64,000 nt of DNA from Paenibacillus sp. FSL R5-0517. Its GTDB lineage: Bacteria > Bacillota > Bacilli > Paenibacillales > Paenibacillaceae. The position numbers and the translations under genes were made by a program. Within the stretch, counting starts at the first letter, position 1. Each line of letters opens with the position of its first letter. The DNA lies in NCBI RefSeq assembly GCF_037974355.1, contig NZ_CP150235.1, forward strand, positions 5,580,001 through 5,644,000, given 5' to 3'. This document shows positions 2,814 to 59,418 of the stretch, one piece after another. The notes below the pieces were generated by a model. That model did not search any database. It was given only the letters and a program-made list of their open reading frames with translations, and had not been told where the DNA came from.

Positions 2814-4010
2814 TTATACAGCTTCCACAGACCATGGTAGGGGATTATCAAAATGGCCCCAGTCGGCCAGCATTTCTTCATCACTGAGCAGGCATTGGTC
2901 CAGCTCATCTTCAATACTGGCACGTTCCATGTCGATTCCAATCATGACAAGCTCCGTCTGGCGATCTCCCCACTGGGCATCCCATTTCTCCAGCACATCC
3001 GGCTCGTTACGCAAAATTTCTTCTTTGTCTGCTTCCGGCAAAGCCGCGACCCAATGTCCCGCAGGACCAAATTGAATGGATGGTCCTGCCTGACTCAGGC
3101 TTGCAGCAACATCTCCTTGGGCGGCAAGCCATACCAAGCCTTTGGCACGTACCACTTCTTCCGGCCAGTAACTCATGAATTCAGCCAGACGGGAAGGGTG
3201 GAATGGCTTTCTGCGGCGATAAACGAAGGAAGCAATGCCATATTCCTCCGTTTCCGGTGTATGCGACTCCTTCTCCAGCTCCTGAATCCATCCAGCGGAC
3301 ATGCTCACCTTTTCAAAATCAAAAAGGCCTGTATTCAGAATCTCAGACGGATTCACCTGTCCATTCTCAGTGCGAATGATTTTGGCATTAGGCTGTAGCT
3401 TGCGGATGATGCCTTCCAGCTTGTTCAGCTCGGTGTCATCGACCAGATCACATTTGTTCAGCAGCAGTACATCACAGGTTTCGATCTGATCAATCAACAA
3501 GTCTACGACGTCACGGGTGTCCTCATCTCCGGTCGCCTGATTACGATCCAGAAGACTCTGTCCTGATCCAAAATCATGCCAGAATCGATTGGCATCCACC
3601 ACAGTTACCAGACAGTCCAGTCTGGCCAGGCTAGTCAGGTCAATGCCCGACTCCTCATCCGCATATGTAAAGGTCTGTGCGACAGGTACAGGTTCACTGA
3701 TACCAGTGGATTCGATCAAAATATAATCATACTTGCCTTCATTCACCAGCTTCTCAATCTCCTGCATCAGATCATCCCGCAAGGTGCAGCAGATACAACC
3801 GTTCGATAACTCCACCAGCTTCTCTTCGGTTCGAGACAAGCTTGCCTCCCCCTTAACCAGCGCAGCATCGATATTCACCTCACTCATGTCGTTGACGATT
3901 ACGGCAACCTTAAGCCCTTGTCTGTTGTTCAACACGTGATTTAAAACGGTTGTTTTCCCTGAACCGAGGTAACCACTTAGTACGGTTACCGGAATTTGCT
4001 TTTGTGTCAT
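2814..4010 (-). CDS. zagA: COG0523/CobW-family GTPase, ZagA (YciC)-type zinc metallochaperone
   Basis: 398 residues of the G3E GTPase family. Walker A is GYLGSGKT (13-20), the CxCC metal motif is CICC (72-75), and the guanine-specificity motif is NKCD. A CobW C-terminal domain begins around residue 260. Family members bind Zn(II) through CxCC and use GTP to deliver it to client enzymes. In B. subtilis, YciC/ZagA is Zur-repressed and supports folate synthesis in zinc limitation. Here a Zur box and a sigma-A promoter lie directly upstream and rpsN2 follows, both supporting a zinc role rather than cobalamin synthesis. SD AAGGAG with 9-base spacing. Confidence 0.93.
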   Translation of the reverse strand: MTQKQIPVTVLSGYLGSGKTTVLNHVLNNRQGLKVAVIVNDMSEVNIDAALVKGEASLSRTEEKLVELSNGCICCTLRDDLMQEIEKLVNEGKYDYILIESTGISEPVPVAQTFTYADEESGIDLTSLARLDCLVTVVDANRFWHDFGSGQSLLDRNQATGDEDTRDVVDLLIDQIETCDVLLLNKCDLVDDTELNKLEGIIRKLQPNAKIIRTENGQVNPSEILNTGLFDFEKVSMSAGWIQELEKESHTPETEEYGIASFVYRRRKPFHPSRLAEFMSYWPEEVVRAKGLVWLAAQGDVAASLSQAGPSIQFGPAGHWVAALPEADKEEILRNEPDVLEKWDAQWGDRQTELVMIGIDMERASIEDELDQCLLSDEEMLADWGHFDNPLPWSVEAV

Positions 4011-4053: not shown

Positions 4054-4074
4054 TAATAGTAATTATTACGATTA
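4054..4074 (-). promoter_or_regulatory. Zur operator (zagA)
   Basis: The halves TAATAGTAAT and ATTACGATTA around a central T form an inverted repeat with 9 of 10 positions paired. This matches the Bacillus Zur box core TCGTAAT-N-ATTACGA. It lies 9 bases downstream of the -10 element of the zagA promoter, so Zn-Zur bound here would block transcription. An almost identical site precedes cntK. Confidence 0.88.
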
Positions 4075-4346: not shown

Positions 4347-5612
4347 TCAGCTTGCTGCCACAGATCTAGCCTTATTGCCCGCTTCCATCCGTTGCCTGAA
4401 CACCAGCACCAGAACCATCGCTGCAATAGACAGCAACGTACAGATCATGAACATAGTCGAATATGAACTCACCTGCACAATAAGCCCCATTGCCAGTCCA
4501 CCCAGAGAGAATCCGAGGTCATACGAGGACATGAAGATGCCCATGAGTACATATCTGGAATCCGCAGGCAGCACAAAAGACAAGTATGTGGTTAATGTCG
4601 GGTACAACAATGCCAGAGCAAAACCGCTAAATACAGCAGAAAGATACACCAGTGGCCCGATGGTCTCCATGAGACTGAGCAGCTGGGTTCCCATTGCTGC
4701 ACACAGCATCAGCCCTGCCATAAGCCAGGTATTCCAGCTGCCGTCAGACGGAATTTTTTTACGCAAAATAAACCTGCACAGAATGACAACCAATCCCTGA
4801 ATCGTCAGAAACACGCCTGCACTTGCCATTCCGGTGGATACCATATACAAGGGAAGAAAGGTCGCTGTTGCCCCAAAAACGCAGGACGCAAATAACATCA
4901 CTACACTGCTGATCAGCAGTGGTGTACTGCGCCAAATGCCGCCGAATGAACGAAACATGTCACCCAAGGTATACGATTTGTTCTGCACGGTACTCCGTGG
5001 CAGATCCACATTATATCCAATCAGAAGTGGCAGAGCAGCCAGTCCGATCATTAGCAGCGTAAACGCCAGATCACTGGCATTTTCCCAGATTTGTATGGCA
5101 AGGATCGGAATGACCAGAGAAGGAACCATCGTAAACAGGGTGTACATGGACAGCCCTTGTGCCCGGTCTTTGTCCTCCAGCTTTTCCACAATGCCTGCCT
5201 GCATCGTCATGGAGAAAAAGGCCGTAGCCACCCCTTGCAAGGCCCGCAGCCACAGATACGTCTCCACACCAAAAACAACAAATAACAGCAGCGTTCCGGC
5301 ATGCAAAAGCAATAACCATTGCATCACACGAAGTGGGCCATGCTTACCCAGCAGCTGTGCTGCGAAAGGTCTCAAGAGCATACAGGTGAACATATATGCC
5401 CCCATCATCAGACCGATCTCAGCCTGATTCAATCCGGCGGCTTCACTTCGCAAAGGCAGAATAATCGTCAAAGCCGAATTCGCCGCAAAAAACAAAAAGG
5501 CCAGCATATAAAACCGGATAAACGAAAAGGATACCGGATTTAATTTTCCATTGGATGTTGCCGTCATCGAAGACTTCAAACGTTCGTCACCACTTTCTCT
5601 TCTGGCAGTCAA
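4347..5612 (-). CDS. cntE: MFS transporter, CntE-like metallophore exporter (second copy)
   Basis: About 421 residues with 12 predicted membrane helices, major facilitator superfamily. It is last in the opine-metallophore operon, where CntE proteins export the apo-metallophore. It is a paralogue of the gene just upstream: both share MGAYMFT near helix 2, a LYPTLTTYLSFVLP stretch and a DGSW motif in the central part. The start is uncertain. The frame overlaps the preceding gene by 4 bases with a TTG at 5612 (coupled translation is plausible); ATG 5567 is an alternative. A weak stem with a T-run on the minus strand near 4261-4285 may terminate the operon. Confidence 0.75.
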   Translation of the reverse strand: MTARRESGDERLKSSMTATSNGKLNPVSFSFIRFYMLAFLFFAANSALTIILPLRSEAAGLNQAEIGLMMGAYMFTCMLLRPFAAQLLGKHGPLRVMQWLLLLHAGTLLLFVVFGVETYLWLRALQGVATAFFSMTMQAGIVEKLEDKDRAQGLSMYTLFTMVPSLVIPILAIQIWENASDLAFTLLMIGLAALPLLIGYNVDLPRSTVQNKSYTLGDMFRSFGGIWRSTPLLISSVVMLFASCVFGATATFLPLYMVSTGMASAGVFLTIQGLVVILCRFILRKKIPSDGSWNTWLMAGLMLCAAMGTQLLSLMETIGPLVYLSAVFSGFALALLYPTLTTYLSFVLPADSRYVLMGIFMSSYDLGFSLGGLAMGLIVQVSSYSTMFMICTLLSIAAMVLVLVFRQRMEAGNKARSVAAS

Positions 5613-6802
5613 CTCACAGATGTACCTGTCACGGGTCTACGCCGTTCATAGGCAAAAACGATCATTACCGCTCCTAGGATAGCACACATCCTGTACATAA
5701 ATGAATAGGAAGAGAAGTCAGCAACGGGTCCCATAATCACACCACCCAGAGAAATACCCAGATCCGCCATCGCGATAAATAACCCGATCAGGACGTTCCG
5801 ATTCAGCTTAGGCAACACAAAAGACAAATAGGTCGTAAGTGTTGGATACAGGATCGCCTGAGCAATTCCCATGAATACAGCCCCCACATAGAAAAAGACT
5901 ACGCCTCCTGTCACGGCATAACTGACACATTGCGCAGCTACGACGAGCAAACACATGGTGCCCATCATGAAAGGAGAATGCCAACTGCCATCAGACGGAA
6001 TCCTTTTCCTAAGCATGATTCGAGCCAGCACCACCGTCCCAGCCTGAAGCATCAGATACACACCCGCATTCCCATTTGGTACTTGACTCGCATACAGCGG
6101 AATAAAGGTGGTAATCGCACCAAATACAACGGAAGCGGCGAGCATTAACACACTGCATCGAAACAGAAACGGATTCTTCACCAACTGACCAAAGGATTCC
6201 CACATACTGACGTTCTGCTCCGAAAGATTCTCAGCAGGTTGCTCCTTGTTTGGTTCCATTTTGGCGGTGTACCCGAAGACGCCAGTACAGACGGCAATGC
6301 CGATCAGAACCACTGTAAAATAATCCATGCCTCCCGCCTGCCAGATTCCTAACGCGATAACAGGCCCCACGATTCCCGGAATATAACTGAAGAGTGAATA
6401 ATATGAAATCCCCTGAGAGCGATCTTTCTCCGGAAGGGCATCAATAATGCCAATCTGCAAAGCCATGGAGAAGAACGCTGTGGAAACTCCTTGCAAAATA
6501 CGAGCAACCAAATAACCGCCGAGTCCCGTAAAGGGATATAAAATCAGCGCAAATCCATTGATAATCAGAATCAGACGCAATATTTTGATCGGTCCGTACT
6601 TTTGAATCATCCGACCTGCCCATGGTCTGAAAAACATGGTTGTGAACATATAAGCGCCCATGATCAGTCCGATCATTGTACCGCTCGCGCCCAAGAACTC
6701 CCCTTGCAATGGGATGATCACGTTAAGAATGGCATTGGCACTGAAATAAAGAAGAACCAATATGTACAAGCGCAAAAAAGGCCAAGACATCGCTCCACTC
6801 AC
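5609..6802 (-). CDS. cntE: MFS transporter, CntE-like metallophore exporter (first copy)
   Basis: 397 residues, 12 membrane helices, major facilitator superfamily. It lies 14 bp after cntF, in the position held by the opine exporter CntE in Staphylococcus. The likely role is efflux of the newly made, metal-free metallophore across the cytoplasmic membrane. It begins with GTG at 6802, 10 bases after AGGGGG. The next in-frame ATG is too far from the SD. It is followed with a 4-base overlap by a second, similar MFS gene. The substrate is inferred from context only. Confidence 0.8.
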   Translation of the reverse strand: MSGAMSWPFLRLYILVLLYFSANAILNVIIPLQGEFLGASGTMIGLIMGAYMFTTMFFRPWAGRMIQKYGPIKILRLILIINGFALILYPFTGLGGYLVARILQGVSTAFFSMALQIGIIDALPEKDRSQGISYYSLFSYIPGIVGPVIALGIWQAGGMDYFTVVLIGIAVCTGVFGYTAKMEPNKEQPAENLSEQNVSMWESFGQLVKNPFLFRCSVLMLAASVVFGAITTFIPLYASQVPNGNAGVYLMLQAGTVVLARIMLRKRIPSDGSWHSPFMMGTMCLLVVAAQCVSYAVTGGVVFFYVGAVFMGIAQAILYPTLTTYLSFVLPKLNRNVLIGLFIAMADLGISLGGVIMGPVADFSSYSFMYRMCAILGAVMIVFAYERRRPVTGTSVS

Positions 6803-6816
6803 AATGGGTATTCCCC

Positions 6817-7569
6817 CTAAAATGGTATTAAATGATTCAATAATCTCTTCGCATAGTCGGACTGTACGTCTTTGAGTTGCTTGATTGGAACGATCTCTAC
6901 AACCTGTCCCTCTCTGAAAATGATCACCCTGTCACAGATATAGGCTGCCGCCTGTATATCATGCGTGATAAAGACATAGCTTAGCTTGTAGATTTCCTTA
7001 AGCTCTTTCAACAATTGCAGCACCTGAATCTGGACAGACACGTCCAGTGAGCTGATCGCTTCATCCAACACAATGCATTTGGGGGCGGTGGAGATGGCCC
7101 TGGCTATACACACTCTCTGTGCCTCCCCGCCGGACAGTTCGTGCGGATATTTGGATCTATAGGAGGAGTCCAATCCAACTTGGTTCAGCAGCAGATCGAC
7201 CTTCGCCGAGTTGCCCTGATCCTTCCGCAGCTTTTGCTGCGCTTGCATGGGTTCCATAATGGCAGCTTCCACGGTAAGAAATGGATTGATGGAAGACGTA
7301 TAATTTTGAAAAACGGCGCTGATGTTACCCATCCGTGCACGTCGATCCTGTACGTCTTTACCATCCAGCGAGATCATTCCACGATCCGGCCGTTCAATGC
7401 CGAGAATCAGACGGCCCAATGTGGATTTGCCGCTTCCGCTTTCACCGATGATGCCCAGACATTCGCCATGCTGGCATTCAAAGGTAACCTGTTTCAACAC
7501 TTGTTGTTGGTGCTTGGAGAACAGTCCGCCCTGGTTATATGATTTTTCGATACCTTCCACCTTTAGCAT
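6817..7569 (-). CDS. cntF: ABC importer ATPase, opine-metallophore uptake (CntF)
   Basis: 250 residues, oligopeptide/nickel-type ABC ATPase. It has Walker A GESGSGKST, signature LSGGEAQR, Walker B CIVLDEA and the switch histidine in FITHDIQ. It pairs with CntD to energise uptake of the metal-loaded metallophore through CntBC. It starts directly after cntD stops (adjacent bases), with SD GGGGG and 8-base spacing. It is short compared with typical OppF/DppF ATPases (about 320 residues), as is usual for Cnt/Nik ATPases. Confidence 0.88.
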   Translation of the reverse strand: MLKVEGIEKSYNQGGLFSKHQQQVLKQVTFECQHGECLGIIGESGSGKSTLGRLILGIERPDRGMISLDGKDVQDRRARMGNISAVFQNYTSSINPFLTVEAAIMEPMQAQQKLRKDQGNSAKVDLLLNQVGLDSSYRSKYPHELSGGEAQRVCIARAISTAPKCIVLDEAISSLDVSVQIQVLQLLKELKEIYKLSYVFITHDIQAAAYICDRVIIFREGQVVEIVPIKQLKDVQSDYAKRLLNHLIPF

Positions 7570-8379
7570 CTATGAGTCCCCCTGCATCAACGCCTTAAAA
7601 TGATTGCTCAGCTCAAGCCGGGTAGAGACCAGATACTGCGTATAGGCATGCTTAGGCTGTGTCAAAACAGAATGCATGCTGCCACGCTCGACGATCTTGC
7701 CGTCTTTCATGACCATCACGTCATCTGCAATCTTCTGCACGACGCCGAGATCATGGGAGATGAACATCATGGAACAGCCCACGCGTTCGCGTAATTGAAT
7801 CAATTGTTCCACCACTTCATATTGGGAGATCGTATCCAGCGCCGTTGTCGGTTCATCCGCAATAATCAAATCGGGCTCAAGCACCAATGCCAGTGCAATC
7901 ATGATTCGCTGCAGCATCCCACCGGACAGCTGATGTGGATATTGATTCAGAATCTCGCGCGGATGTCTGAGCATGACGCTTTCCATGGCATGGATGATTT
8001 TCCGCTCAATCTCGCGGGTGTTCCAGCCAAAATGCTGCTGAAGTGTCTCCCTGATATGCACACCAATGACACAGGAGGGATCAAAAGCACTCATGCCATT
8101 CTGCAAAATCATACACAGATGCTTGCCCCGCTTACGCCGCATCTCCGGTTCCGAAAGCTGGTTCAGGTCTTCGCCCTGAAATAAGATCGTGCCCGATTGG
8201 CGAATCCACGGCTTGTTCAGTCGCATGATGGCCCTGCACGTGACGGACTTGCCGCTACCACTTTCCCCCACGATGGCCATACAGCTTCCCTGTTTAACTT
8301 CGAATGAACTGTTATGAATGATCACTTTGTCTGTGTTGATGTCCCATACTTTCAGATGCTCAACCTCGACTATATTCAT
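7570..8379 (-). CDS. cntD: ABC importer ATPase, opine-metallophore uptake (CntD)
   Basis: 269 residues with Walker A GESGSGKSVT, signature LSGGMLQR, Walker B LIIADEP and FISHDLG. It is the NikD/DppD-like partner of CntF in the metallophore importer and acts at the inner face of the membrane. Its start overlaps the end of cntC by 20 bases, and it ends next to the start of cntF, typical of a tightly coupled transporter operon. Confidence 0.88.
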   Translation of the reverse strand: MNIVEVEHLKVWDINTDKVIIHNSSFEVKQGSCMAIVGESGSGKSVTCRAIMRLNKPWIRQSGTILFQGEDLNQLSEPEMRRKRGKHLCMILQNGMSAFDPSCVIGVHIRETLQQHFGWNTREIERKIIHAMESVMLRHPREILNQYPHQLSGGMLQRIMIALALVLEPDLIIADEPTTALDTISQYEVVEQLIQLRERVGCSMMFISHDLGVVQKIADDVMVMKDGKIVERGSMHSVLTQPKHAYTQYLVSTRLELSNHFKALMQGDS

Positions 8380-9256
8380 AAGCGGCCTTTCTCACCTCAC
8401 TTTCGTAAGACTTGTCAGACTTACCTTGAGAGGTCATCAATTTGGGGTCCAGAGCCACTTGAAGGGCATCCGATAGAAAATTAAAAGCAGACACCACCAC
8501 TACAATGGCCAGGCCCGGTGCCAACATCAATTCAGGTCTGGAGAACATGACTTCCCTCGCCTCATTGAGCATCATCCCCCACTCCGCATGCGGAGCTTGA
8601 ATGCCAAGCCCCAGAAAGGAAAGGCCGGAGATCTGCAACATCATTGAACACATGGAGCCACTCGCAATGACGGCAATATCGGCAAAGGTAACCGGAACAA
8701 TATGTTTGGTTATAATTCTCAGATTAGGTGTGCCGGAGGCTTTGGCGAATTTCACATAATCCATATCGGAGAATTGCATCACAGATGTGCGAATAACGCG
8801 GGCAAACCAGGCCCATTTCATGCACACAAAAGCAATCAAAATGTTCTCCAGTCCTGCACCCAAAATGCCAACCACCGCCAGTGTCATCACGTATCCGGGA
8901 AAAGACAGCATAATATCACAGACTCTCATGATCCATGCATCCACTTTTCCCTTGAAGTAACCCGCGACGAATCCAACAATGGCCCCGATCAGAACAGACA
9001 GACTAAGTGCAACCAGAACCCATAACACACTTGGACGGATGCCATAGATAAGCCGGGATAATACACATCTGCCCAGATGATCATTGCCTAGTAGATACTC
9101 CCAGGACGAGGAGGCATAACGAAGCTTCATATTCACTTGTCCAGGATCATGCGGCGCAATAAGAGGGGCGAGAATTCCCGCCATAAGCGTTGCGATAATC
9201 ACCACCAAAGAGGTCATGGCCAGCTTGTCTTTACTCAGATTTATCAGTATACGCAT
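8360..9256 (-). CDS. cntC: ABC importer permease, opine-metallophore uptake (CntC)
   Basis: 298 residues of the DppC/NikC permease family: an N-terminal helix, an external loop (HDPGQVNMKLRYASSSWEYL), then five helices with the EAA loop around YVKFAKASGTPNLRIITKHI that docks the ATPases. It forms the membrane channel with CntB. The ATG at 9256 overlaps the cntB stop codon. Confidence 0.88.
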   Translation of the reverse strand: MRILINLSKDKLAMTSLVVIIATLMAGILAPLIAPHDPGQVNMKLRYASSSWEYLLGNDHLGRCVLSRLIYGIRPSVLWVLVALSLSVLIGAIVGFVAGYFKGKVDAWIMRVCDIMLSFPGYVMTLAVVGILGAGLENILIAFVCMKWAWFARVIRTSVMQFSDMDYVKFAKASGTPNLRIITKHIVPVTFADIAVIASGSMCSMMLQISGLSFLGLGIQAPHAEWGMMLNEAREVMFSRPELMLAPGLAIVVVVSAFNFLSDALQVALDPKLMTSQGKSDKSYESEVRKAAYEYSRG

Positions 9257-10188
9257 CAGAATTCCTTTCTCAATCGGGGATTCATCGCCGCATTCAAGAT
9301 GTCGGATAACGTGTTAAACAAGACAAAGGTGACAGCCAACATCAGAACATACGCCTGAATAATCGGAAAATCCCTGCTTAAAATGGATTTCACGCTGAGT
9401 CTCCCTAGCCCCGGCCAGGAAAACACATTTTCGATGACTACCGTACTGCCCAGCACGATCGGGATCGCCATACAAAAGATGGACACGGCCACCTGTAATG
9501 AATTTCTCAGAATATGCAGGGTAACTTTCTTCTCGCTCAGACCACTTGCCCGTGCATATAACACATAGTCCTCATTCATATTGCTCAACATGGAACTTCG
9601 AACCGTTCGGAAGTAAATGCCCGTATAACTCACCGTGATTACAATCACCGGTAGAATGTAGCTTCGATACGAGTCCATGCCACTGGTAGGTAACAGGTCC
9701 AGCTTGACGGAAAAATACCAGATCATCATGGCTGCAAGCCAGTAAGATGGCATGGCGGTAAGGAAAAATGATACACCTCTGACCGATCGATCCAGCAGCT
9801 TGCCTTCTCTCATCGCACAGATCACACCCAGCAGAATGGACAGCGCAATAATGAATACCGATGAGACAAGTGTTAACTTCAATGTGTTCATAAAAGCAGG
9901 CCCCATCAATGACCACACGGGTTCACCTGATACATAAGAGTTGCCAAAGTCCAACTGCACAACAGCCATGATCCAGTTCACATACTGGATCATGAACGGC
10001 TGATCGAACCCCAATGCCTGGTTGGTCTGGTCAATTAATTCCTCTGTAATCTGCGGAACTTCCTGTGCCTGTAAGACAACAACCGCCGGGTCCAAGGGAG
10101 ATAGATTAATCAGAACAAACGTTATAAATGAAATGATAATCAGTAAAGGGATGGTTAACAGAATCCTTTTGACGATATAACTTCCCAT
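9256..10188 (-). CDS. cntB: ABC importer permease, opine-metallophore uptake (CntB)
   Basis: 310 residues of the DppB/NikB permease family. An N-terminal signal-anchor helix (YIVKRILLTIPLLIIISFIT) is followed by a periplasm-type loop and five more helices. The EAA loop is near YVLYARASGLSEKKVTLHIL. Start: ATG 10194 abuts GGAG, while ATG 10188 has 6 bases of spacing and is preferred. A palindromic repeat element fills the gap to cntA, so this is the one point where the operon's coding genes are spaced apart downstream of cntA. Confidence 0.88.
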   Translation of the reverse strand: MGSYIVKRILLTIPLLIIISFITFVLINLSPLDPAVVVLQAQEVPQITEELIDQTNQALGFDQPFMIQYVNWIMAVVQLDFGNSYVSGEPVWSLMGPAFMNTLKLTLVSSVFIIALSILLGVICAMREGKLLDRSVRGVSFFLTAMPSYWLAAMMIWYFSVKLDLLPTSGMDSYRSYILPVIVITVSYTGIYFRTVRSSMLSNMNEDYVLYARASGLSEKKVTLHILRNSLQVAVSIFCMAIPIVLGSTVVIENVFSWPGLGRLSVKSILSRDFPIIQAYVLMLAVTFVLFNTLSDILNAAMNPRLRKEF

Positions 10189-10202
10189 ATCCATCTCCGC
10201 TC

Positions 10203-10395
10203 TATTTAAATTGAACTAAACAATATTTACACTACACTCCGATGACAGAACAACCTTCCGATCGCTGTTATCCCCAGATTTTTTTGATTCCTTTAAATAG
10301 GGAAAATCCGGGGATAAAGGCGAACGCTCCGCTTCTTCAGGCTCTTTCTGTCCTCTCCGTTTTGTGTAAATGTTTAGTTCAATTTATATATTTAA
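10203..10395. repeat. Palindromic MITE-like element, copy A
   Basis: About 190 bp. The ends are inverted: AAATTGAACTAAACA...TTTACAC on the left and GTGTAAATGTTTAGTTCAATTT on the right. An inner arm TTATCCCC (10268-10275) pairs with GGGGATAA (10310-10317). Between these arms lie ACAGAACAACC / GGCTCTTTCTGTCC. The right end overlaps the last codons and stop of cntA. The same element recurs at seven other places in this window. Confidence 0.85.
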
Positions 10396-12016
10396 AATTC
10401 ATTTGTTCAAATGGTAGTTCATATTGGGTCTGCTTGAATGAGATTCCATCAAGATTCTCGGGAGCGACAACAGTGACACGCCCGTTGGTAATCGGAATGA
10501 ACACCGCTTCATCATGGACGATCTTCATAATGTCAGCATACAGGGATTGGCGGGAGTCCTCATCCGTGGAGATCATGACCGCATCGATTTTCTTGTACAA
10601 TTCATCCGCTTCGGCAATTCCGCTTGTCGTATGCTTGTATGCTGAATCTGACGTAAATGCAGCAATGGTACTCTGTGGATCATAGGCCAGTCCCCAGGTT
10701 TGATTAAAGAGCAGGTCATATTCCCCGGTGGCTCTCCGATTCGCAATGGAAGTGGACTCTTCGCCCAAGATTTCAAGCTGAATTCCCAATTCTTTCATGG
10801 AATACTGGATCAATTCGGCCTGTATTTTCTGTGAAGACGAATTGCTGTCATAATATAATTTCATGGCTAAAGGCTGACCGTTCTTCGTTCTCACAACTTC
10901 ACCATCTGCCAATGCCCAACCAGCTTGGTCCAGAAGCTTTTTAGCCAATTCCGGATCATACTCCCGTTTCTTAAGGTCTACCTTGGCGTAATTGACATTG
11001 GCCGAAAATAGCGTATCCGCTACAGTCTGCGTTCCGTTGAAAATATCTTTACTGATCGTTTCCCGATCAATGGCAACCCATAGCGCTTCCCGCACTGCCG
11101 TTTCCTGAACCGGACTATTCTGGCGACTGCTGTTGGCTACGATCATATTGGTGTTCATCGCTTCACTTCGAACCACTTGATAATCACCAGATTCAGCTAA
11201 TTGGTCCATGGCCTCGACATCGATACTATCTGCTCCCCGGTCATCGGTGAACACAAAGTTAATCTCTCCTTTTTGCAATGCCAGAAATGTTGTTTCCCCT
11301 GCCGGAAGAACCTTGGATGTGATCTTCTTAATTGCAGGTGCACCACCCCAATAGTCTTCATTGGCTTCAAACGTGGCGTTCTCTTCGACTTTATGAGCAG
11401 TAAGCTTGTAAGGTCCTGTACCATGGAAACCACTTACTCCGTCTTTGGTTCCGCCATCCTTGAAATCCTTGGGGGATAAGAAGACGTAAGGTCTTGTCAT
11501 GGACAATTCCACCAGTGCCGGATAATAGGGTTCCGAAAGTGTGAGCTCCACCGTATGCTCATCGATAACCTTCACATTCGTGATTTTGGTAGACAGCTTG
11601 ATCCAGGCATGTTTTTCAGCGTTGGCCTGTACTGCATCGATATTTTGTTTAACCGCCTCTGCGTTGAACGGCTCTCCATCATGGAATTTCACATCTTGTC
11701 GCAGATGAAAGGTATAGATCTTGCCATCCTCGGAGATATCCCATGATTCTGCCAGCAATGGCTTGATTCCATCAGGGGTGTTTTCCACCAGTGACTCATA
11801 TACCATCCCTTGGGCAGGCATGGAACCTGTGTATAGATGGGGATTCATGTCATTAATATCTTTGGCAGAAGCATAGATAAGTTCCGTTTGTACCTGGCTA
11901 TGGGCAGGCTCCGTTTGGGCGCTCTCTTTCTCTTTTGTGCTCTGAGCGCATCCTGCCAGCACCGTAATGGCAGATACCAGCAATAATATAGATGTAAAAG
12001 TAAGACCCTTTTTCAC
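10379..12016 (-). CDS. cntA: Opine-metallophore-binding lipoprotein (CntA), ABC importer solute-binding protein
   Basis: 545 residues of the SBP_bac_5 family (NikA/OppA type). The signal peptide is MKKGLTFTSILLLVSAITVLAGC, with a lipobox LAGC placing the lipidated Cys at about residue 23, so it is anchored outside the membrane. It should capture the metal-opine complex and hand it to CntBCDF. The GTG start at 12016 has GGGAGG 7 bases upstream; a longer frame to 12049 lacks an SD. It is flanked on both sides by copies of the palindromic element, one of which supplies the end of the reading frame. Confidence 0.88.
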   Translation of the reverse strand: MKKGLTFTSILLLVSAITVLAGCAQSTKEKESAQTEPAHSQVQTELIYASAKDINDMNPHLYTGSMPAQGMVYESLVENTPDGIKPLLAESWDISEDGKIYTFHLRQDVKFHDGEPFNAEAVKQNIDAVQANAEKHAWIKLSTKITNVKVIDEHTVELTLSEPYYPALVELSMTRPYVFLSPKDFKDGGTKDGVSGFHGTGPYKLTAHKVEENATFEANEDYWGGAPAIKKITSKVLPAGETTFLALQKGEINFVFTDDRGADSIDVEAMDQLAESGDYQVVRSEAMNTNMIVANSSRQNSPVQETAVREALWVAIDRETISKDIFNGTQTVADTLFSANVNYAKVDLKKREYDPELAKKLLDQAGWALADGEVVRTKNGQPLAMKLYYDSNSSSQKIQAELIQYSMKELGIQLEILGEESTSIANRRATGEYDLLFNQTWGLAYDPQSTIAAFTSDSAYKHTTSGIAEADELYKKIDAVMISTDEDSRQSLYADIMKIVHDEAVFIPITNGRVTVVAPENLDGISFKQTQYELPFEQMNFKYIN

Positions 12017-12035
12017 AACATTTCCTCCCGATGAG

Positions 12036-12226
12036 CAAATAAAATTCAAACATTACACAAGACCACTACGTGGTCAGAACAACCTTCCGATCGCCGTTAT
12101 CCCCAGATTTTTTGATCTCTTTTCCAAAGAGAAAATCCGGGGATAAATGCGAACGCTCCGCTTCTTCAGGTTTTTTCTGCCCCCTCCGTTACTGTGTAAA
12201 ACAAAATTTAATTTGCATTATTTAAA
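12036..12226. repeat. Palindromic MITE-like element, copy B
   Basis: About 190 bp between cntM and cntA, same orientation as copy A. The core arms are TTATCCCC (12097-12104) and GGGGATAA (12139-12146). The ends carry TTACACA and TGTGTAA with AT-rich flanks resembling AAATTNAATTT. It lies only a few bases from the cntM stop codon. Confidence 0.82.
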
Positions 12227-12231
12227 TGTAA

Positions 12232-13533
12232 CTAGACCCTACTACTTACAAGTCCGGTGCAGATCATGCGGATATCCTCTTCAAAGGATTGGATCACAAA
12301 GGCATCGGATAAACGTTGATCTGTTTTCGTACGGGCAACTTCCTGAATCTTCGCCTCGTATGTGGCGATAAAATGATCCATGGTTGGACAGCTCACATCC
12401 AGGTGTCTGGCTATGCCCTGAATGATTTTGATGCGGTAGTAATCTTCATTGGGCATACGGGGGATGTCCAGTTCCCCTTCGCGGTTCATGAACGTTTGAC
12501 GGAATGGGACTGCTGAAAAGTCAAAATATTTGCCTTCCGAATCGGGTTCCGAGAATGGATCAATCAATAATGAGGTGTACCGTATGTATAATAAATACTC
12601 TTGATGAATGACCTGCAGCTGATTGAAATTCTCGATATCCTGGCGTGATATACTCTCTAATCGAACCGGATAGTTGTCATCCGTCATGAATTGAAGCAGG
12701 TTCACTCCCTGGATATGGAGTCGGTCCGTTATATTCATAATCTCCTGCCACTGTGCCCGCATATCCCGTATCAAAACTTGAGTAATCGGACCTTCGGGAT
12801 ACATCTTGTATACATATTTCTGAATATCCGATGCTTCAAAGATGGCCTTTAATGAGAAGTCGTTCATGAACAAGGGCGGATGCACATACAACGAGATATT
12901 TCTCGTTTCCGCCTCCAGTGGGGAAGTCATGACTTCCAACGCAATACCCAAACGCTCATAAGCTTGGCATAGCTTGTTAACCTGTTCAGACGGGTATTGA
13001 TTGGAACCGATATAGACCTTTTTCTTGACCCCCGTTGTCATGACATGATTAGACGGATGTTCGTGCATCCAACGGGTATCTCCGAGGTAGGTCGAGAAAC
13101 TGATCACTTCAGGCACTGTATTACGCTCTCTCATATAATGGGTCACTAATCGATTCGACCCAAACGTCGGAGAGACCAAAACGATACATTTCAGTTGTTT
13201 GATGAATTGTTCACTCATTTGTTCCAATACATCAATATAAGCATCCGTAGTTACAGCCAAAATGAGCGTGTCCCACTCACCCTGAATGGTGTCATATCCC
13301 TTGAACACATGATCAACGAAACATTCACCTGCAAGCGGTTGATGTTTCTCATTTTGAATGCTGACCTCAACACGCCCATTGCTCTGTTCAAGGGCTGCGA
13401 ATACGGACGCTGAACGAACCGATGGTCTCCCCGCAATACCAATGCAGCAGTTGAGATAATCTTTGAATGTTACCGCAAGCTGAATGGATGCAGGGCCGGT
13501 TCCAAATATCAGAATTCGCTGAAGATTGCTCAT
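12232..13533 (-). CDS. cntM: Opine (staphylopine-type) dehydrogenase, CntM
   Basis: 433 residues. An N-terminal Rossmann motif GTGPASIQ (11-18) binds NAD(P)H, and the remainder fits the opine dehydrogenase fold of the staphylopine/pseudopaline group. The enzyme reductively condenses the CntL product with a 2-oxo acid, the last step of metallophore synthesis. Whether the acid is pyruvate (staphylopine) or 2-oxoglutarate (pseudopaline, bacillopaline) cannot be read safely here. Paenibacillus bacillopaline is reported to use 2-oxoglutarate. SD AGGAGG with 5-base spacing. The order cntK-L-M is the same as in Staphylococcus. Confidence 0.9.
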   Translation of the reverse strand: MSNLQRILIFGTGPASIQLAVTFKDYLNCCIGIAGRPSVRSASVFAALEQSNGRVEVSIQNEKHQPLAGECFVDHVFKGYDTIQGEWDTLILAVTTDAYIDVLEQMSEQFIKQLKCIVLVSPTFGSNRLVTHYMRERNTVPEVISFSTYLGDTRWMHEHPSNHVMTTGVKKKVYIGSNQYPSEQVNKLCQAYERLGIALEVMTSPLEAETRNISLYVHPPLFMNDFSLKAIFEASDIQKYVYKMYPEGPITQVLIRDMRAQWQEIMNITDRLHIQGVNLLQFMTDDNYPVRLESISRQDIENFNQLQVIHQEYLLYIRYTSLLIDPFSEPDSEGKYFDFSAVPFRQTFMNREGELDIPRMPNEDYYRIKIIQGIARHLDVSCPTMDHFIATYEAKIQEVARTKTDQRLSDAFVIQSFEEDIRMICTGLVSSRV

Positions 13534-13599
13534 AATAACCTCCTATATTCAAAGTTCAACCTGGAATCCATTTGGACGTACTTGAGACGCACTTGCATT

Positions 13600-14394
13600 C
13601 TATGCTTTCTGGTACAACGCAATATCGAACACATCATCCGGGCGCAGGATATGGTCTATCAGCTTCCACTTGGTACTGTCCGTCGCTCTCATCGGATAAT
13701 TAAATAAGGACTTTAACTGGTCACCATATCTCATGGCTACAACCACCTGTGCATTTGTCAGGGCATGCAGTTGATCAAGCAGATCATATTTAGGGGCCAC
13801 GGTAGAGCTGAAAATGATATGTGTTGCTTCCTTGGTATACTCCAGATTTTCCAGCAAGGTTGACTCCAGATGAATCTTCAAACCTGCGCCCAGCGTCTTT
13901 ACCACCTTCTGCCCGAGTGTAATGGATTCTTCATCAATATCGATCCCGACAACCTGTGCACCTGTTCGCTTGGCGATGAGTAATGGTGTCATGGGGAAGG
14001 AACCGGAGCCTACCAGCAATACTTTGGAATCGGAGGTAACCTGGAAGCTGCCGAATTCTTTATCGATACACTCTTCGATGTTTCTGAAATAATCGGCAAT
14101 CTGTACATCCCCGTTCTCTAACTTCAATGCACGATATTTCTCCATGATCGCCACACACTGGGCGGATTTATTTCTTAACTGCCATATAAGCGAATCCAGT
14201 TCTTCCAACTCCGAATGCCCCAACTGTTCCCAAGCTGCCTTATTCTCCGAATCGGTCACAAAGAGGGAGTAGTCATTGATCACAGCCTCCAGCTCTGCAC
14301 TATGCTGAATCGTATGATCGTACTTGCTCGCGAGCTTATCGAATTTCTCTGCAAACTCACTCAAACATGTCTGAAAATGGACCAATGTGATCAT
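13600..14394 (-). CDS. cntL: Nicotianamine synthase-like aminobutanoyltransferase, CntL
   Basis: 264 residues. It has a helical N-terminus and a SAM-binding Rossmann domain with GSGSFP at 129-134, the same glycine/proline-rich loop as nicotianamine synthase. CntL moves one aminobutanoyl group from S-adenosylmethionine to histidine, unlike plant NAS, which does this repeatedly. The neighbouring CntK supplies D-histidine, so D-His is the expected acceptor. SD AGGGGG with 7-base spacing. It sits between the racemase and dehydrogenase genes with short gaps. Confidence 0.9.
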   Translation of the reverse strand: MITLVHFQTCLSEFAEKFDKLASKYDHTIQHSAELEAVINDYSLFVTDSENKAAWEQLGHSELEELDSLIWQLRNKSAQCVAIMEKYRALKLENGDVQIADYFRNIEECIDKEFGSFQVTSDSKVLLVGSGSFPMTPLLIAKRTGAQVVGIDIDEESITLGQKVVKTLGAGLKIHLESTLLENLEYTKEATHIIFSSTVAPKYDLLDQLHALTNAQVVVAMRYGDQLKSLFNYPMRATDSTKWKLIDHILRPDDVFDIALYQKA

Positions 14395-14437
14395 TTCTTT
14401 TCCCCCTATATGTTGTCTCGATCATCTATCATGTACC

Positions 14438-15298
14438 TCATGCGTTTACAACGCTCCATTCTGCTGGAGCATCTATGAAGGCTTTGCCTTGTGCGACAAT
14501 GCCAACAGATCCCTCAATCGTAATACTCTCAAGTTCCGCGGCATTCCACTGGACCATCACTTTGATCGCACCACCAGGCTGCTTGATGTACTGCGTAATC
14601 TGCCTCTGCTGGCTCCATGCGAGATAGGCACCCACGGAGGCCGTACCCGAACCACACCCTCTCTCCCAGATCAGACTATCCAGCTCTGGAACATAGATGA
14701 GAGGAGCCATTTCTTGCGAGTGCGATTGATATAACAAGATACCGATCAGCTTATCTCCCAGGGTTACTCCCAGTAACCTTGCAAGGGTCTGTGCCCTCTT
14801 CTTCATCGGATCGTCGAAGTCATCCACTTCAATCACGATATGGATGAACTCGGCGTACCGGATGATTACCATATCCAGCTCGATGCCTTCGTACCGGATG
14901 GTTCGCTGTTCAATCTGCTTTGGAACCGGCATGGTTACCCGGCAGTCATATTCATTCTGCTGCTTCTTCACATGGCACATGATCAATTGATCGATTCCGG
15001 AAACTTCCAGCACGATGTCCATAGATTTCTCTTGTGCCAGCCCTGCTTCAGATGCGTGGTGTGCTGCAAGTGCCATGCAGGCATTGCCACAGAACTCGCC
15101 GCCGGACATTTCCAGACGGGCCACAGCTTCCGGTCTCCTTGTTGGTTCAATGAATCCCACTTGCTCGGCGTAAACGTTATCATACGACATTAGGCGGGTA
15201 GCAATATGACTGTATTGCTCGGCTGCATGATCCGTTTTAACCAGAATCGTCATGTTTTGAGTGGGACTGAACTTGATAAAATCGATCTCCTGTTTCAT
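14438..15298 (-). CDS. cntK: Histidine racemase, DapF-fold, CntK
   Basis: 286 residues with the diaminopimelate epimerase fold. The two catalytic cysteines are visible: Cys70 in GGEFCGNA and Cys215 in WERGCGSGTA. In Staphylococcus the homologue converts L-His to D-His for staphylopine; the dedicated dapF of lysine synthesis is normally elsewhere. The ATG at 15298 has AGGAG about 11 bases upstream. A longer frame to 15397 would run through the Zur box and the promoter, so it is rejected. As the first gene of the operon it is directly under Zur control. Confidence 0.9.
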   Translation of the reverse strand: MKQEIDFIKFSPTQNMTILVKTDHAAEQYSHIATRLMSYDNVYAEQVGFIEPTRRPEAVARLEMSGGEFCGNACMALAAHHASEAGLAQEKSMDIVLEVSGIDQLIMCHVKKQQNEYDCRVTMPVPKQIEQRTIRYEGIELDMVIIRYAEFIHIVIEVDDFDDPMKKRAQTLARLLGVTLGDKLIGILLYQSHSQEMAPLIYVPELDSLIWERGCGSGTASVGAYLAWSQQRQITQYIKQPGGAIKVMVQWNAAELESITIEGSVGIVAQGKAFIDAPAEWSVVNA

Positions 15299-15330: not shown

Positions 15331-15351
15331 TAATAGTAATAATTACGATTA
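15331..15351 (-). promoter_or_regulatory. Zur operator (cnt operon)
   Basis: The inverted halves TAATAGTAAT and ATTACGATTA surround a central A; 9 of 10 positions pair. It is identical to the zagA site except for the centre base. It is placed 13 bases downstream of the -10 element, so Zn-Zur would block initiation or elongation. This supports zinc as the main metal of the encoded opine. Confidence 0.9.
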
Positions 15352-15626: not shown

Positions 15627-16853
15627 TCACTCTTGATGTGCTTGCACATTGTGCAGTGCTTGCTCAGCTAATGCAGCCAGAAGATGTGCTCCCAGCGGCA
15701 ATGCCCGTTCATCCACATCAAAGCCAGGGTGATGCCACTCATGCGGGCCAGAGGTGCCCAAGAAGAGGAACAGGCCCGGAACTTCTTTTTGATAAAAAGA
15801 GAAGTCCTCCCCTGCTGGAGAAGGCAGCGGTCTAACGCGATTTAATCCAATCTCACTTGCAATTTGTTCCGCTGCAAACGCGAGAGCTTCATCGTTGACC
15901 ACGGCAGGTGGTCCTTGAATCCAGCGAACCGTAGCCCGTGTGCCATAAGCTGCCGCCACACCGGTCACCACCTGATTGAAACGCTCGCGAATCCGTGCAC
16001 GCACTTTCTCATCAAAGGTGCGCACTGTGCCATCGAGTATCGCTTCATCTGGAATGACGTTCCAGGCTGTACCGCTGTGGAGCTTGGTAACGCTGATGAC
16101 GGCGCTCTCCTGTGCTCCTACATTACGACTCACAATCGCCTGTAGAGCCGTAACGATATGTGCGGCAACCACGATCGGATCAATGCCTGCTTCAGGCACG
16201 GCTGCATGGGTGCCTACACCTTCCACTTTGACAACAAAACCGTCTGCGGCCGCCATCAATGCGCCTTCCCGAATGCCTACCGTACCCACCTGAAGATCAG
16301 GTTTGTTATGCAACCCGAATACGGCCCGAACATCGGATAATGCGCCGCTCTGGATCACTTGCCGTGCACCCGTTGCTTTTTCCTCCGATGGCTGGAACAA
16401 CAAGCGTACTTTCCCCGGGAGCGTGGACTCGCGCTGTTTCAGTAATCGTGCAGCACCAATCAGAATCGCCGTGTGTGCGTCATGTCCGCAGGCATGCATC
16501 TTTCCAGCCACCTGCGAGGCAAATTCCAGCTTCGTCTCTTCCTGAATGGGCAGCGCATCAATATCCGCTCTTAGGGCGATCACCGGGCCGTCTCCTTGGC
16601 CTACTTCAGCGACAAGCCCTGTCCGCAGCACATATTCGTCTGCAATACGGACACCTTCCTCTTCCAGCCAGCTGCGAATGGCTGCCGTCGTTTCCTTTTC
16701 CTCGCCAGACAATTCCGGGTTGCGATGCAGGTGTCGCCGAATGGTGATTAAATGTTCCGCGAATGCTTCCTCCCGTTCACCGTGAAGCTCATGCTCGGGG
16801 CCCTGTATTTGCTCTACAGCCTGCTGCTTGGGCTGTTCCAGATCACTTTTCAT
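15627..16853 (-). CDS. M20 family amidohydrolase (N-acyl amino acid / S-substituted cysteine deacylase)
   Basis: 408 residues of the M20D hippurate hydrolase/SndA group. Metal-site motifs are ALRADIDALPI, ACGHDAH, PSEEK and the late PAGEDFSFY and HPGF region. These enzymes remove N-acyl groups from amino acids. Homologues in the B. subtilis ytmI and yxe operons deacetylate N-acetyl S-alkylcysteines such as S-(2-succino)cysteine. The neighbouring monooxygenases, flavin reductase and peptide-type importer point to the same kind of pathway. ATG 16853 has GGGAGG 7 bases upstream. It is the last gene before a terminator. Confidence 0.85.
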   Translation of the reverse strand: MKSDLEQPKQQAVEQIQGPEHELHGEREEAFAEHLITIRRHLHRNPELSGEEKETTAAIRSWLEEEGVRIADEYVLRTGLVAEVGQGDGPVIALRADIDALPIQEETKLEFASQVAGKMHACGHDAHTAILIGAARLLKQRESTLPGKVRLLFQPSEEKATGARQVIQSGALSDVRAVFGLHNKPDLQVGTVGIREGALMAAADGFVVKVEGVGTHAAVPEAGIDPIVVAAHIVTALQAIVSRNVGAQESAVISVTKLHSGTAWNVIPDEAILDGTVRTFDEKVRARIRERFNQVVTGVAAAYGTRATVRWIQGPPAVVNDEALAFAAEQIASEIGLNRVRPLPSPAGEDFSFYQKEVPGLFLFLGTSGPHEWHHPGFDVDERALPLGAHLLAALAEQALHNVQAHQE

Positions 16854-16903
16854 CACATGGCCTCCCATTCGTATATATTCTCTGCTATATTAACTGCCTA
16901 CTT

Positions 16904-17965
16904 CTATCCGATTGCGGCTTCCTGTGTCTTGGATTCCAGTGCAAATTCGCTTAGTCCCTGCTCTGCCAGAATTTCACGCAACAATTCAAATGAACGAATT
17001 CGCTTGGTAAAGTCCCGTGTAGCTGTAGTCACAATGAACTCTTCCACCGCAAAATCCTGCTGAAACTTCAGCAGTGCCTGACCTACGATTTCCTTCGTAC
17101 CCCGGGTCACACTTGGCTCCAGAATCTCGATCCGATAGCTCTCGTTTGATTGACGTCCGAATTCTTCCGCCTGTTCCACAGAACCCACCGTCAGCACCTT
17201 TCCACTCTCCAGATGGATCTTCACCAGCATATGCTCGCTCGCAAGTCCTTCCGCTTCTTCCTCACTCTCCGCCACAATCAGGGATAAAGCCAGTGCAGCG
17301 TAAGGCACCCTTCCCTGAGAACGATCGAATTGCTCGCGATATACACGGATGGCCTCAAGCGCTACCTCAATATTACTGTTAATGAACAGTGAAAAAACAT
17401 ATGGGAGTCCCAGTTCCGCAGCCATGCCTGCACTATCAACACTGGCTCCAAGTACGTACAGTTCCGCTGGAATGTCGGACACAGGCGAAGCGCTGAGACC
17501 TGCAAGTGGATGGGATGGATCTTCAAACGGCTCATTGTGGATGTATCGTTTCACCTGAACAATTTTCTCTTGAAGTGATGCCGCACCCTGAATCCCTTCC
17601 TGTAACGCCTGTGTTGAACGCGGTAATCCACCTGGTGCACGACCAATTCCCAGGTCAACTCTTCCTGGTCCGAGCGCTGCGAGGATATTGAAATTTTCGG
17701 CGACTTTGTATGGACTGTAATGCTGGAGCATCACTCCGCCAGACCCCAGCCGAATCCGCTTCGTATGCGCAAGCAAGTGGGAGATGAGTACCTCCGGGGA
17801 GGAACCTGCAACATGCCCTGAATCATGGTGCTCCGATACCCAGAACCGATGGAATCCAAGCTGCTCTGCCCGCTGTGCCAGCTCAATCGTATGCCGAAAA
17901 GCATCCACCGCCGTTTCCCCTTCATAGATGGGAGTCTGATCCAAAATGCCCACACGAATACTCAT
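16904..17965 (-). CDS. Luciferase-like flavin-dependent monooxygenase (MsnO8/YtmO type)
   Basis: 353 residues with the bacterial luciferase TIM barrel: MSIRVGILDQTP start, FHRFWVSEHHD, LGSGGVMLQHYSPYKVAENF and GPGRVDLGIGRAPGG. It uses reduced FMN and oxygen to cleave C-S or oxidise a small organic substrate. The identity of that substrate is inferred from context (organosulfur). FMNH2 would come from the SsuE-like reductase encoded at 19147-19695. ATG 17965 has AGGAGG with 8-base spacing; the longer frame to 18010 lacks support. Confidence 0.85.
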   Translation of the reverse strand: MSIRVGILDQTPIYEGETAVDAFRHTIELAQRAEQLGFHRFWVSEHHDSGHVAGSSPEVLISHLLAHTKRIRLGSGGVMLQHYSPYKVAENFNILAALGPGRVDLGIGRAPGGLPRSTQALQEGIQGAASLQEKIVQVKRYIHNEPFEDPSHPLAGLSASPVSDIPAELYVLGASVDSAGMAAELGLPYVFSLFINSNIEVALEAIRVYREQFDRSQGRVPYAALALSLIVAESEEEAEGLASEHMLVKIHLESGKVLTVGSVEQAEEFGRQSNESYRIEILEPSVTRGTKEIVGQALLKFQQDFAVEEFIVTTATRDFTKRIRSFELLREILAEQGLSEFALESKTQEAAIG

Positions 17966-18010
17966 ATCCTTCTCCTCCTTGATTGTGCTGAACCGCTGAT
18001 ATTGAATCAC

Positions 18011-18200
18011 TATTAAGTTGAACTAGAGATGTTACACGTTATCACTCCGATTGCAGTACCAGCTTCCGATCGCTCTTATCCCCAGATTTTCTGTACTCCC
18101 TTGGTGCAAGGGAAAAATCCGTTGATAAATTCGCACGCTTCGCTTCTTCAGATTGGTTCTGCACTCTCCGTTTTGGTGTAAAAGTCGGATTCAACATAGA
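18011..18200. repeat. Palindromic MITE-like element, copy C
   Basis: About 190 bp between the LysR and luciferase-like genes. Left end AAGTTGAACTAGAGATGTTACAC; right end GTGTAAAAGTCGGATTCAAC. The core has TTATCCCC (18076-18083), but the opposite arm is GTTGATAA instead of GGGGATAA, a variant also seen in copy E. It ends 4 bp from the LysR stop codon. Confidence 0.8.
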
Positions 18201-18204
18201 CGCT

Positions 18205-19077
18205 CTATAACTGTCGCAGCAGTTCCCCGAAGGGCTCTGCCAATGGCGAATATTCTTCCTTTAACGTGACAACGCTGATCTGCAATGATACACCTGCCAC
18301 CTCATGTACCTGAATGGGGAACAACTCCTGATTCTGCACTTCCTTCTTCACCGTGAGTCCCGGGAGAAAAGCAATGCCTGCCCCTTGCATAACCAGTTTC
18401 TTCGCTGTCTCCGAATTGTCGACATGATATGTAATATTCGGAGGATGTTCCAGCGAGTCGAAAGCCCGGTGAATGCGAAGCCAGTCCAATGAACCACATT
18501 CGAAAAAGACCAGTTGCTCATGCCGGATCGCTTCCATGCTGACATGCCCGCTCTCCATGAATGGATGTCCTTTGTACACATAGAGCTGAATTGGATCTTC
18601 ATAAAAAGCAACCGTACGGATCGCAGGATGCATCACCTTGCGTACAAAAGCAAGATCGATCTCCTGACCAAGCAATTTGGCAATCAGCTGATCCGTCGTT
18701 GCCGTCGTCAGTTTGATATTAATTTCGGGGTAAGCTTCCTTGATCTTGGGTAGAAAATCGGGAATGACATAATTCGAGACCGATACTGTACTCCCCAGTC
18801 GAAGTGCATCCGGTGTTGTCTTGCGTTGTTGAATCTTCTGCTTGCCCTTCTGAATGACTTGCAGCACTTGCTGCGCATACGGCAGGAATTTCCGACCTTC
18901 TTCTGTCAGGACAATTTGCTTGCCAAGCCGATCAAACAACTTGCAGCCCAGCTCCCTTTCCAGTGACTGAATGCGAGCTGTGACCGAAGGTTGGGACAAG
19001 AAGAGTACTTCGGCAGCCTTATTGAAGCTTCCATAATGATTGATATATACAAATGCTTCAATATTCTCGATATTCAT
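18205..19077 (-). CDS. LysR-family regulator of the organosulfur cluster
   Basis: 290 residues: a winged helix-turn-helix at 1-65 (FNKAAEVLFLSQPSVTARIQ) and a substrate-binding effector domain. It resembles CysL/YtlI-type regulators of sulfur genes in Bacillus, but exact orthology cannot be fixed from sequence alone. It lies within the run of cluster genes on the same strand, unlike the usual divergent LysR layout. ATG 19077 has GGAGG 5 bases upstream; an earlier ATG at 19095 does not. Confidence 0.85.
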   Translation of the reverse strand: MNIENIEAFVYINHYGSFNKAAEVLFLSQPSVTARIQSLERELGCKLFDRLGKQIVLTEEGRKFLPYAQQVLQVIQKGKQKIQQRKTTPDALRLGSTVSVSNYVIPDFLPKIKEAYPEINIKLTTATTDQLIAKLLGQEIDLAFVRKVMHPAIRTVAFYEDPIQLYVYKGHPFMESGHVSMEAIRHEQLVFFECGSLDWLRIHRAFDSLEHPPNITYHVDNSETAKKLVMQGAGIAFLPGLTVKKEVQNQELFPIQVHEVAGVSLQISVVTLKEEYSPLAEPFGELLRQL

Positions 19078-19146
19078 GAGCGCCTCCGTATCCACGTCCG
19101 CAGACGTTTGATCTTATATTGATTTATCCAATACACTTACTTGGTT

Positions 19147-19695
19147 TTATGATATCGTAATCCCATCCTTTTCCAGTGTCAATCTCAATTCATCCAGCGA
19201 GCGATCCAGACGTGTAGTAATATCTGCCGAGAGTACGAATTGTCCATCATTCAGTCGTTCAATTCCCTGATCCACAGCATACACACCACCCAGGATATGT
19301 CTTCCACCAAGGGCCGCCAGTACAGGCTTCAATGCATAATCAATGGCGAGCAGATGAGCAATAGAGCCACCGATAACGAGTGGAAGTGTCAACTTGCCCC
19401 GTAGACCTTCTTGCGGAATCAGATCCAGGAACAGCTTGAGCACTCCCGAGTACGATGCCTTGTATACCGGCGTAGCTACAATGACTGCATCCGCGGCTTC
19501 AACGACAGCCAGTGCATCCCGAATGAATGAGCTGCCGAACCGGGCTTGCACCAGATCCTCAGCGGGTAGATCCGCAACATGAATGACTTCAACGGTGATG
19601 CCTGCCTCCGTTAATTTTTGGCTGCTGTAATCCGTCAGACCTGTCAAACGCGAACGTTTGGAAGGTGATCCGGCAATAATGACGACATGTGGCAT
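19147..19695 (-). CDS. NADPH-dependent FMN reductase (SsuE-like)
   Basis: 182 residues with a flavodoxin-like fold: VVIIAGSPSKRSR phosphate loop and the TPVYKASYSGVLKLFLD segment typical of SsuE/MsuE. It makes reduced FMN for two-component monooxygenases, two of which are encoded in this cluster. SD GAGGAGG upstream of ATG 19695. It starts a sub-block after the permease genes with a gap of about 120 bp. Confidence 0.88.
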   Translation of the reverse strand: MPHVVIIAGSPSKRSRLTGLTDYSSQKLTEAGITVEVIHVADLPAEDLVQARFGSSFIRDALAVVEAADAVIVATPVYKASYSGVLKLFLDLIPQEGLRGKLTLPLVIGGSIAHLLAIDYALKPVLAALGGRHILGGVYAVDQGIERLNDGQFVLSADITTRLDRSLDELRLTLEKDGITIS

Positions 19696-26668: not shown

Positions 26669-26704
26669 CCCGTATCCTCCCTCAATCGCTTTACTTTAAG
26701 TGGT

Positions 26705-26975
26705 CTATATAAGTTGAACTAATCATTTATACGATAACGGATAGGAAAGAAAAAACCTGAAAAAGCGAAGCTACAAGCTTTCTGCAAGAAAGCTACTTCG
26801 AAAGCATACACTTCGTCTACAAGCTTTCTGAAAGAAAGCTGCATCGGAAGCATACGCTATCCCTGGATTTCCCCTTGAGAAAGGGAATCGAAAGCATCTG
26901 GGGATAACAGCGATTGGAAGGTTATTCTGTCAACGTAGTGTCAGTATAAATAATCTTCAGTTCAAATTATATAGT
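26705..26975. repeat. Palindromic MITE-like element, copy D (long, internally duplicated)
   Basis: About 270 bp, reversed relative to copies A-C. Ends: TATATAAGTTGAACTAATC on the left and CAGTTCAAATTATATAG on the right. It contains the CTGGGGATAACAGCGATTGG core and two tandem copies of a hairpin module (ACAAGCTTTCTGCAAGAAAGCT and ACAAGCTTTCTGAAAGAAAGCT with CGGAAGCATACGCT). This is the only copy where the inner hairpin is doubled. Confidence 0.8.
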
Positions 26976-53262: not shown

Positions 53263-53494
53263 TTATATAAGTTCAACTAATCATTATTTACACTGACACT
53301 TCGAGGACAGAACAACCTTCCGATCACTGTTATCCCCAGCTTTTTTTGATTCCTTTTTTAAAAGGAAAAATCCGTTGATAAAGGTGAAGCGTATGCTTCC
53401 GATGCAGCTTTCTTTCAGAAAGCTTTTAGCTTCGCTTCTTCAGGTTATTTCTGTCCTCTCCGTTATTGTGTAAATGTTAGTTGAACATATAAGT
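53263..53494. repeat. Palindromic MITE-like element, copy E
   Basis: About 230 bp upstream of the helicase gene. Ends: TATAAGTTCAACTAATCATT...TTTACAC on the left and GTGTAAATGTTAGTTGAACATATAAG on the right. The core is TTATCCCC on one side and GTTGATAA on the other. It contains one copy of the AGCTTTCTTTCAGAAAGCT hairpin module next to GCGTATGCTTCCGATGC. Confidence 0.85.
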
Positions 53495-59404: not shown

Positions 59405-59418
59405 ATCTCATATTCCTT

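Follow-up and report, generated by a model that had tools for sequence, protein, structure and literature searches.

Which opine metallophore does the cnt operon of Paenibacillus sp. FSL R5-0517 make, and which metal does it serve? We analysed a window of 64,000 nucleotides (all positions below are those of this whole stretch) and conclude, with a probability of about 0.8, that the operon serves to produce and use a zincophore of the staphylopine type, the identity of the product being predicted from its enzymes. Staphylopine is a broad metallophore and is best known from Staphylococcus aureus. The preliminary description had reported ten collinear genes. All ten open reading frames were found, co-directional on the minus strand from 15298 to 4347, in the order cntK, L, M, A, B, C, D, F, E1 and E2 (Table 1). 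Components were identified with Pfam and NCBIfam profiles, each giving the expected family, and with the closest solved structures, which are those of S. aureus CntM, CntK, CntL and CntA. The motifs initially named are in place: GSGSFP in CntL, GTGPASIQ in CntM and both catalytic cysteines in CntK, i.e. C70 (GGEFCGNAC) and C215 (WERGCGSGT), which are invariant in 70 CntK rows. The full importer and the MFS exporters were also recovered, with CntA, CntC, CntD, CntE and CntB (Opp1B) above their cut-offs and CntF recognised by position. Loci are assigned to the cnt operons by CntM (PF10100), an adjacent NAS-like CntL and a linked importer and exporter, all of which are found here, with cntL directly upstream of cntM. 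With profiles matching every component, the claim of an opine-zincophore operon holds, and the locus is a real and complete member of this known kind.

Table 1. Features of the cnt locus and its surroundings, with window positions and the evidence for each assignment.
Feature	Position	Strand	Evidence
COG0523/CobW-type GTPase, candidate zinc metallochaperone	2814..4010	-	cobW 1.7e-56; CobW_C 1e-23
Second Zur-box-like palindrome TCGTAATAATTACTA	4057..4071	-	46 nt before COG0523 gene
cntE2, second CntE-family MFS protein, TTG start uncertain	4347..5612	-	NF047574 402 bits, 2e-120, cut-off 235
cntE1, MFS exporter	5609..6802	-	NF047574 696 bits, 1e-209
cntF, ATPase	6817..7569	-	position and ABC_tran; top model NikE 248 bits, 9e-74, below cut-off
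cntD, ATPase	7570..8379	-	NF047578 472 bits, 4e-142, above curated cut-off
cntC, permease	8360..9256	-	NF047573 498 bits, 5e-150, above curated cut-off
cntB, permease	9256..10194	-	NF045469 (Opp1B permease) 504 bits, 1.8e-151, above cut-off
Structured mobile repeat inserted in cntA stop codon	10203..10392	-	model R1 216 bits
cntA, metallophore-binding lipoprotein	10379..12019	-	NF047575 977 bits, 1.9e-294, cut-off 800; 5yh8 CntA 9e-184
Structured mobile repeat between cntM and cntA	12031..12221	-	model R1 174 bits
cntM, opine dehydrogenase, Asp152 = SaCntM Asp150 (STYLGDTRW)	12232..13533	-	PF10100 Staph_opine_DH 5.4e-203, 674.8 bits, cut-off 25; NCBIfam 7.5e-170; SaCntM alignment
cntL, nicotianamine-synthase-like 2-aminobutyrate transferase	13600..14394	-	NF033601 1e-86; 7c9m CntL 1e-61
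cntK, histidine racemase, 286 aa	14438..15298	-	NF033599 2e-73; closest structures 6l4l/6jis; Cys70 and Cys215 invariant
Zur-box-like palindrome TCGTAATTATTACTA	15334..15348	-	perfect match; 35 nt upstream of cntK ATG

Nine named Paenibacillus genomes and the majority of the loci sampled across the family share this gene order, which excludes chance. The closest named genomes are those of Paenibacillus xylanexedens, P. amylolyticus and their relatives, whose CntM proteins are 88-90% identical to that of the window; the window therefore probably belongs to this group. Gene content and order, the catalytic and specificity residues, and the Zur-like sites with their conservation are direct observations. 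Four points go beyond the preliminary description: the Zur-like boxes, the COG0523 gene linked to the operon, how old the second exporter is, and the mobile repeats flanking cntA. The added value lies in the call of pyruvate as keto acid, in a second exporter restricted to the genus and in the insertions of the repeat. The three biosynthetic enzymes score below the NCBIfam equivalog cut-offs for staphylopine enzymes (CntK 247/300, CntL 290/350, CntM 565/675 bits), which are annotation thresholds and not a biochemical definition. All three are full length, and no other model outscored the staphylopine-enzyme models. We take these scores to reflect distance from the staphylococci, and not to indicate another product. 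A search for a second zincophore cluster in this genome found none, and its CntM is single.

The two exporters raise the question of whether both serve the same molecule. E1 and E2 are 44% identical. In the tree, all E2 rows group together (SH-aLRT 100), and the branch that connects them with all other CntE-type rows has a length of about 2.5 changes per site. Given this separate clade and long branch, we rejected an origin of E2 by recent tandem duplication, and the tree makes E2 an old paralogue of E1. The simplest reading is that it is redundant with E1 in staphylopine export. A non-redundant role, for example in exporting another opine or a modified one, or in recycling, is possible and carries a smaller but appreciable weight. 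Such a role would suit a protein on its own long branch, confined to the window's genus (and not present throughout it) among the sampled loci with sufficient flank, and, in a comparison of five close relatives, more conserved than any other protein of the operon (98.3%, against 95.4% for E1). Yet E2 exceeds the curated CntE cut-off (402 bits for a threshold of 235), overlaps E1 by 4 nt within the same operon, and is accompanied by no extra biosynthetic gene there.

The nature of the opine depends on two features. In the account on which we rely, the presence of cntK sets D-His in the product, and position 150 of S. aureus CntM (SaCntM) sets the keto acid, Asp giving pyruvate and Ala giving 2-oxoglutarate (PMC7438024). 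The rule on position 150 rests on a few tested enzymes, and SaCntM with Asp changed to Ala uses both keto acids about equally (PMC7438024), so residues other than 150 matter. The intact CntK of the window, with both catalytic cysteines, supports the D-histidine-based opine expected at the outset. The keto acid had been left open pending the CntM residue: Asp152 of the window enzyme aligns with SaCntM Asp150, where P. aeruginosa CntM has Ala, and pyruvate is favoured. The residue is the Asp of the staphylopine (pyruvate) subtype and not the Ala of the bacillopaline (2-oxoglutarate) subtype. Because cntK is present and CntM carries this Asp, we predict staphylopine (D-histidine and pyruvate) and favour a staphylopine-like over a bacillopaline-like product.

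The family survey places this residue in context. Position 150 is Asp in 110, Ala in 19 and Ser in 4 of 133 CntM rows, which include some genomes entered twice, and the CntM tree requires only three changes at this position. The window enzyme falls on the Asp side of the split, as do all first-type CntM examined in its genus. Nearly all Asp150 enzymes of the Paenibacillaceae are accompanied by cntK and a close CntA. In the Ala/Ser150 clade, no CntK was detectable with a profile built from 70 CntK rows, and the binding protein is distant (21-27% identity), in line with the K-less type of PMC7438024. Two loci combine cntK with Ala150: L126, and L181, which has a full K-L-M-A-B-C-D-F-E operon and the arrangement expected of a bacillopaline producer. 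Position 150 therefore varies independently of cntK. Two further loci of the window's genus, L075 (genome G035) and L076 (G003), show a second, K-less Ala150 CntM cluster besides the staphylopine-type one, and given these two cluster types these genomes may make two different zincophores. In another, L074 (G038), cntM is split into two ORFs and cntK is matched as two ORFs; this operon is possibly decaying.

These data bear on the alternative that the product is bacillopaline, made from D-His and 2-oxoglutarate as in P. mucilaginosus, which we consider unlikely. That bacillopaline is the reconstituted Paenibacillus product, from the same genus name in the wide sense and from a gene set of the same kind, and several Paenibacillus genome papers use its name for such clusters. 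The P. mucilaginosus cluster also resembles that of the window in its CntK, Opp-type importer and MFS exporter (PMC7438024). In contrast, PmCntM has Ala at 150 and uses 2-oxoglutarate (PMC7438024), while the window has Asp, not Ala, there, and the CntM of L181, the relative that does combine cntK, Ala150 and the same operon order, is just 61% identical to the window's. The pseudopaline cluster of P. aeruginosa and the yersinopine cluster of Yersinia pestis share CntL and CntM homologues with the window, but are without CntK and have an EamA exporter and other importers (PMC7438024). Staphylopine remains the predicted product. If so, many Paenibacillus of the amylolyticus/xylanexedens/pabuli kind would make staphylopine rather than bacillopaline, so labels drawn from cluster similarity may be mistaken, and the same zincophore may be common to soil bacteria and staphylococci. 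The loci surveyed here, among them L181 with its Ala150 in an otherwise staphylopine-type operon, offer natural material for testing the keto-acid rule based on one residue.

The control regions point to zinc. The box upstream of cntK lies just downstream of a promoter-like TTGACG-18-TATATT (15394-15365), and the second box just after a TTGACA-18-TATAGT (4113-4084). Since both directly follow a sigma-70-like promoter match, they occupy the position where a repressor would block transcription. Both are exact matches on one strand, when about one match with two mismatches is expected by chance per window. The exact pattern occurs six times in the whole genome. Two of these sites fall in the region G000:C1:3843500-3851500 (L011), one at znu-like ABC genes and the other at a further COG0523 GTPase gene. 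The box upstream of cntK is kept in most relatives (nearly all loci having cntK). By analogy with the known Bacillus Zur box, the regulator would be Zur; the mark of its regulon, a putative Zur-box-like operator at the promoter, was found here. The operon is apparently zinc-controlled. The COG0523 GTPase gene is linked to the cnt operon and probably co-regulated with it, and it adjoins E2 in most relatives having E2. It is improbable that the system serves nickel or cobalt in preference to zinc: CntA is related to NikA (621 bits with TIGR02294 nickel_nikA, cut-off 393) and the Opp1B/Opp1C models are named nickel/cobalt permeases, but the more specific CntA model gives 977 bits (cut-off 800), the operator is Zur-like and recurs at the adjacent COG0523 gene, and nickel and cobalt uptake may be a side activity because staphylopine is a broad metallophore.

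From these elements we infer the following product chemistry, regulation and direction of transport. When zinc is scarce, Zur would leave the box at 15334-15348 and the operon would be transcribed. CntK would convert L-His to D-His, CntL would add an aminobutyrate unit taken from SAM, and CntM would catalyse the reductive condensation of the CntL product with pyruvate to give staphylopine. This would be exported by CntE1, with or without E2, and would bind zinc as well as further metals, among them Ni, Co and Cu, the metal-staphylopine complex being imported by CntABCDF. Scarce zinc would probably be passed to client proteins by the COG0523 GTPase, whose gene has a Zur-like box of its own. Among the closest known systems is cntKLMABCDFE of S. 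aureus, which has the same gene order, a CntK, Asp at CntM 150, an Opp-type importer and an MFS exporter. What sets the window apart is that it has two CntE-family proteins, that a COG0523 gene preceded by its own Zur-like box is linked to the operon, and that mobile repeats flank cntA.

These two repeats are both about 190 nt long and in operon sense. The cntM-cntA gap is 212 nt in the window versus 37 nt in L054 and L088. The cntA-cntB gap is 7 nt in L048, L050-L055, L074 and L088, and 184 nt in the window and 185 nt in L049. There, the empty site reads TTTTAAATAGAGC and the filled site TTTTAAATA[TATAAATTGAAC...GTTCAATTTAAA]TAGAGC, so that a past insertion can be seen directly. The pair is consistent with duplication of TA, and other lengths of up to 8 nt fit too. 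The target was the stop codon of cntA, and the repeat end gives a new TGA after three added residues (YIN). This insertion is missing from most relatives, and the repeat jumped in recently. Another copy lies directly after cntE2, in the opposite orientation, in the E2-COG0523 gap of L048, L051 and L052, with a similar situation in L050; in L048 and L051 the repeat end seemingly supplies the stop codon of cntE2.

At least 147 copies of this family lie in the genome, a lower bound since 150 of the 2690 first-look candidates were scored; of 150 Paenibacillaceae genomes sampled, 121 gave matches. The window holds eight: the two of the operon and those at 18010-18204, 26704-26973, 53264-53495, 57220-57448, 59174-59406 and 61371-61570. 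Lengths cluster near 190, 230 and 270 nt, in steps that roughly match a 42-nt internal module found in the longer window copies and present zero, one or two times per copy. Ends could be read in 23 copies, which are flanked most often by CTA (11/23) and TAG (13/23); this suggests CTAG as the preferred target. The strand of the repeat tracks the chromosome half (45+/18- versus 15+/69-, p = 5e-11), which may reflect gene orientation; between co-directional ORFs, 18 of 24 copies are in sense. Folding is stronger than in shuffled sequences (z of -4.5 and -5.4), and two-sided changes affect 7 of 39 base pairs, where shuffles gave 0.9 and slid controls 0-2. As the copies are closely related, these paired changes are moderate evidence for the structure. 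We rejected a known RNA family as the identity of the flanking repeats, there being no Rfam match, and a limited search of open-licence literature returned no published description.

IS630-type miniature elements, such as the Correia and RUP repeats, are about 100-200 nt long with terminal inverted repeats. The repeats are roughly comparable in size, and may share with them the terminal inverted repeats and a duplication of TA, with which the insertion pattern is consistent. They differ from Correia and RUP in sequence and in their zero to two 42-nt modules, and no IS630-type transposase was found in the genome with DDE_3, the sole transposase family searched. It is a rather doubtful proposal that the repeats flanking cntA act as long hairpins in the operon transcript, isolating and stabilising the cntA segment, so that the binding protein is tuned apart from the enzymes and permeases, and that insertions of this widespread Paenibacillaceae family rewire operons at stop codons.

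Two other parts of the window deserve mention. Adjoining the operon, 15627-19695 encodes an M20 peptidase, a luciferase-like monooxygenase, a LysR regulator and an FMN reductase, followed by an Opp-type ABC system; this is probably an uptake cluster unrelated to the cnt operon. Further along, a minus-strand ORF of 1749 codons (36541-41790) contains eight to nine tandem units of 210 nt (37316-39169) and probably encodes a large repetitive surface or fibre-like protein.
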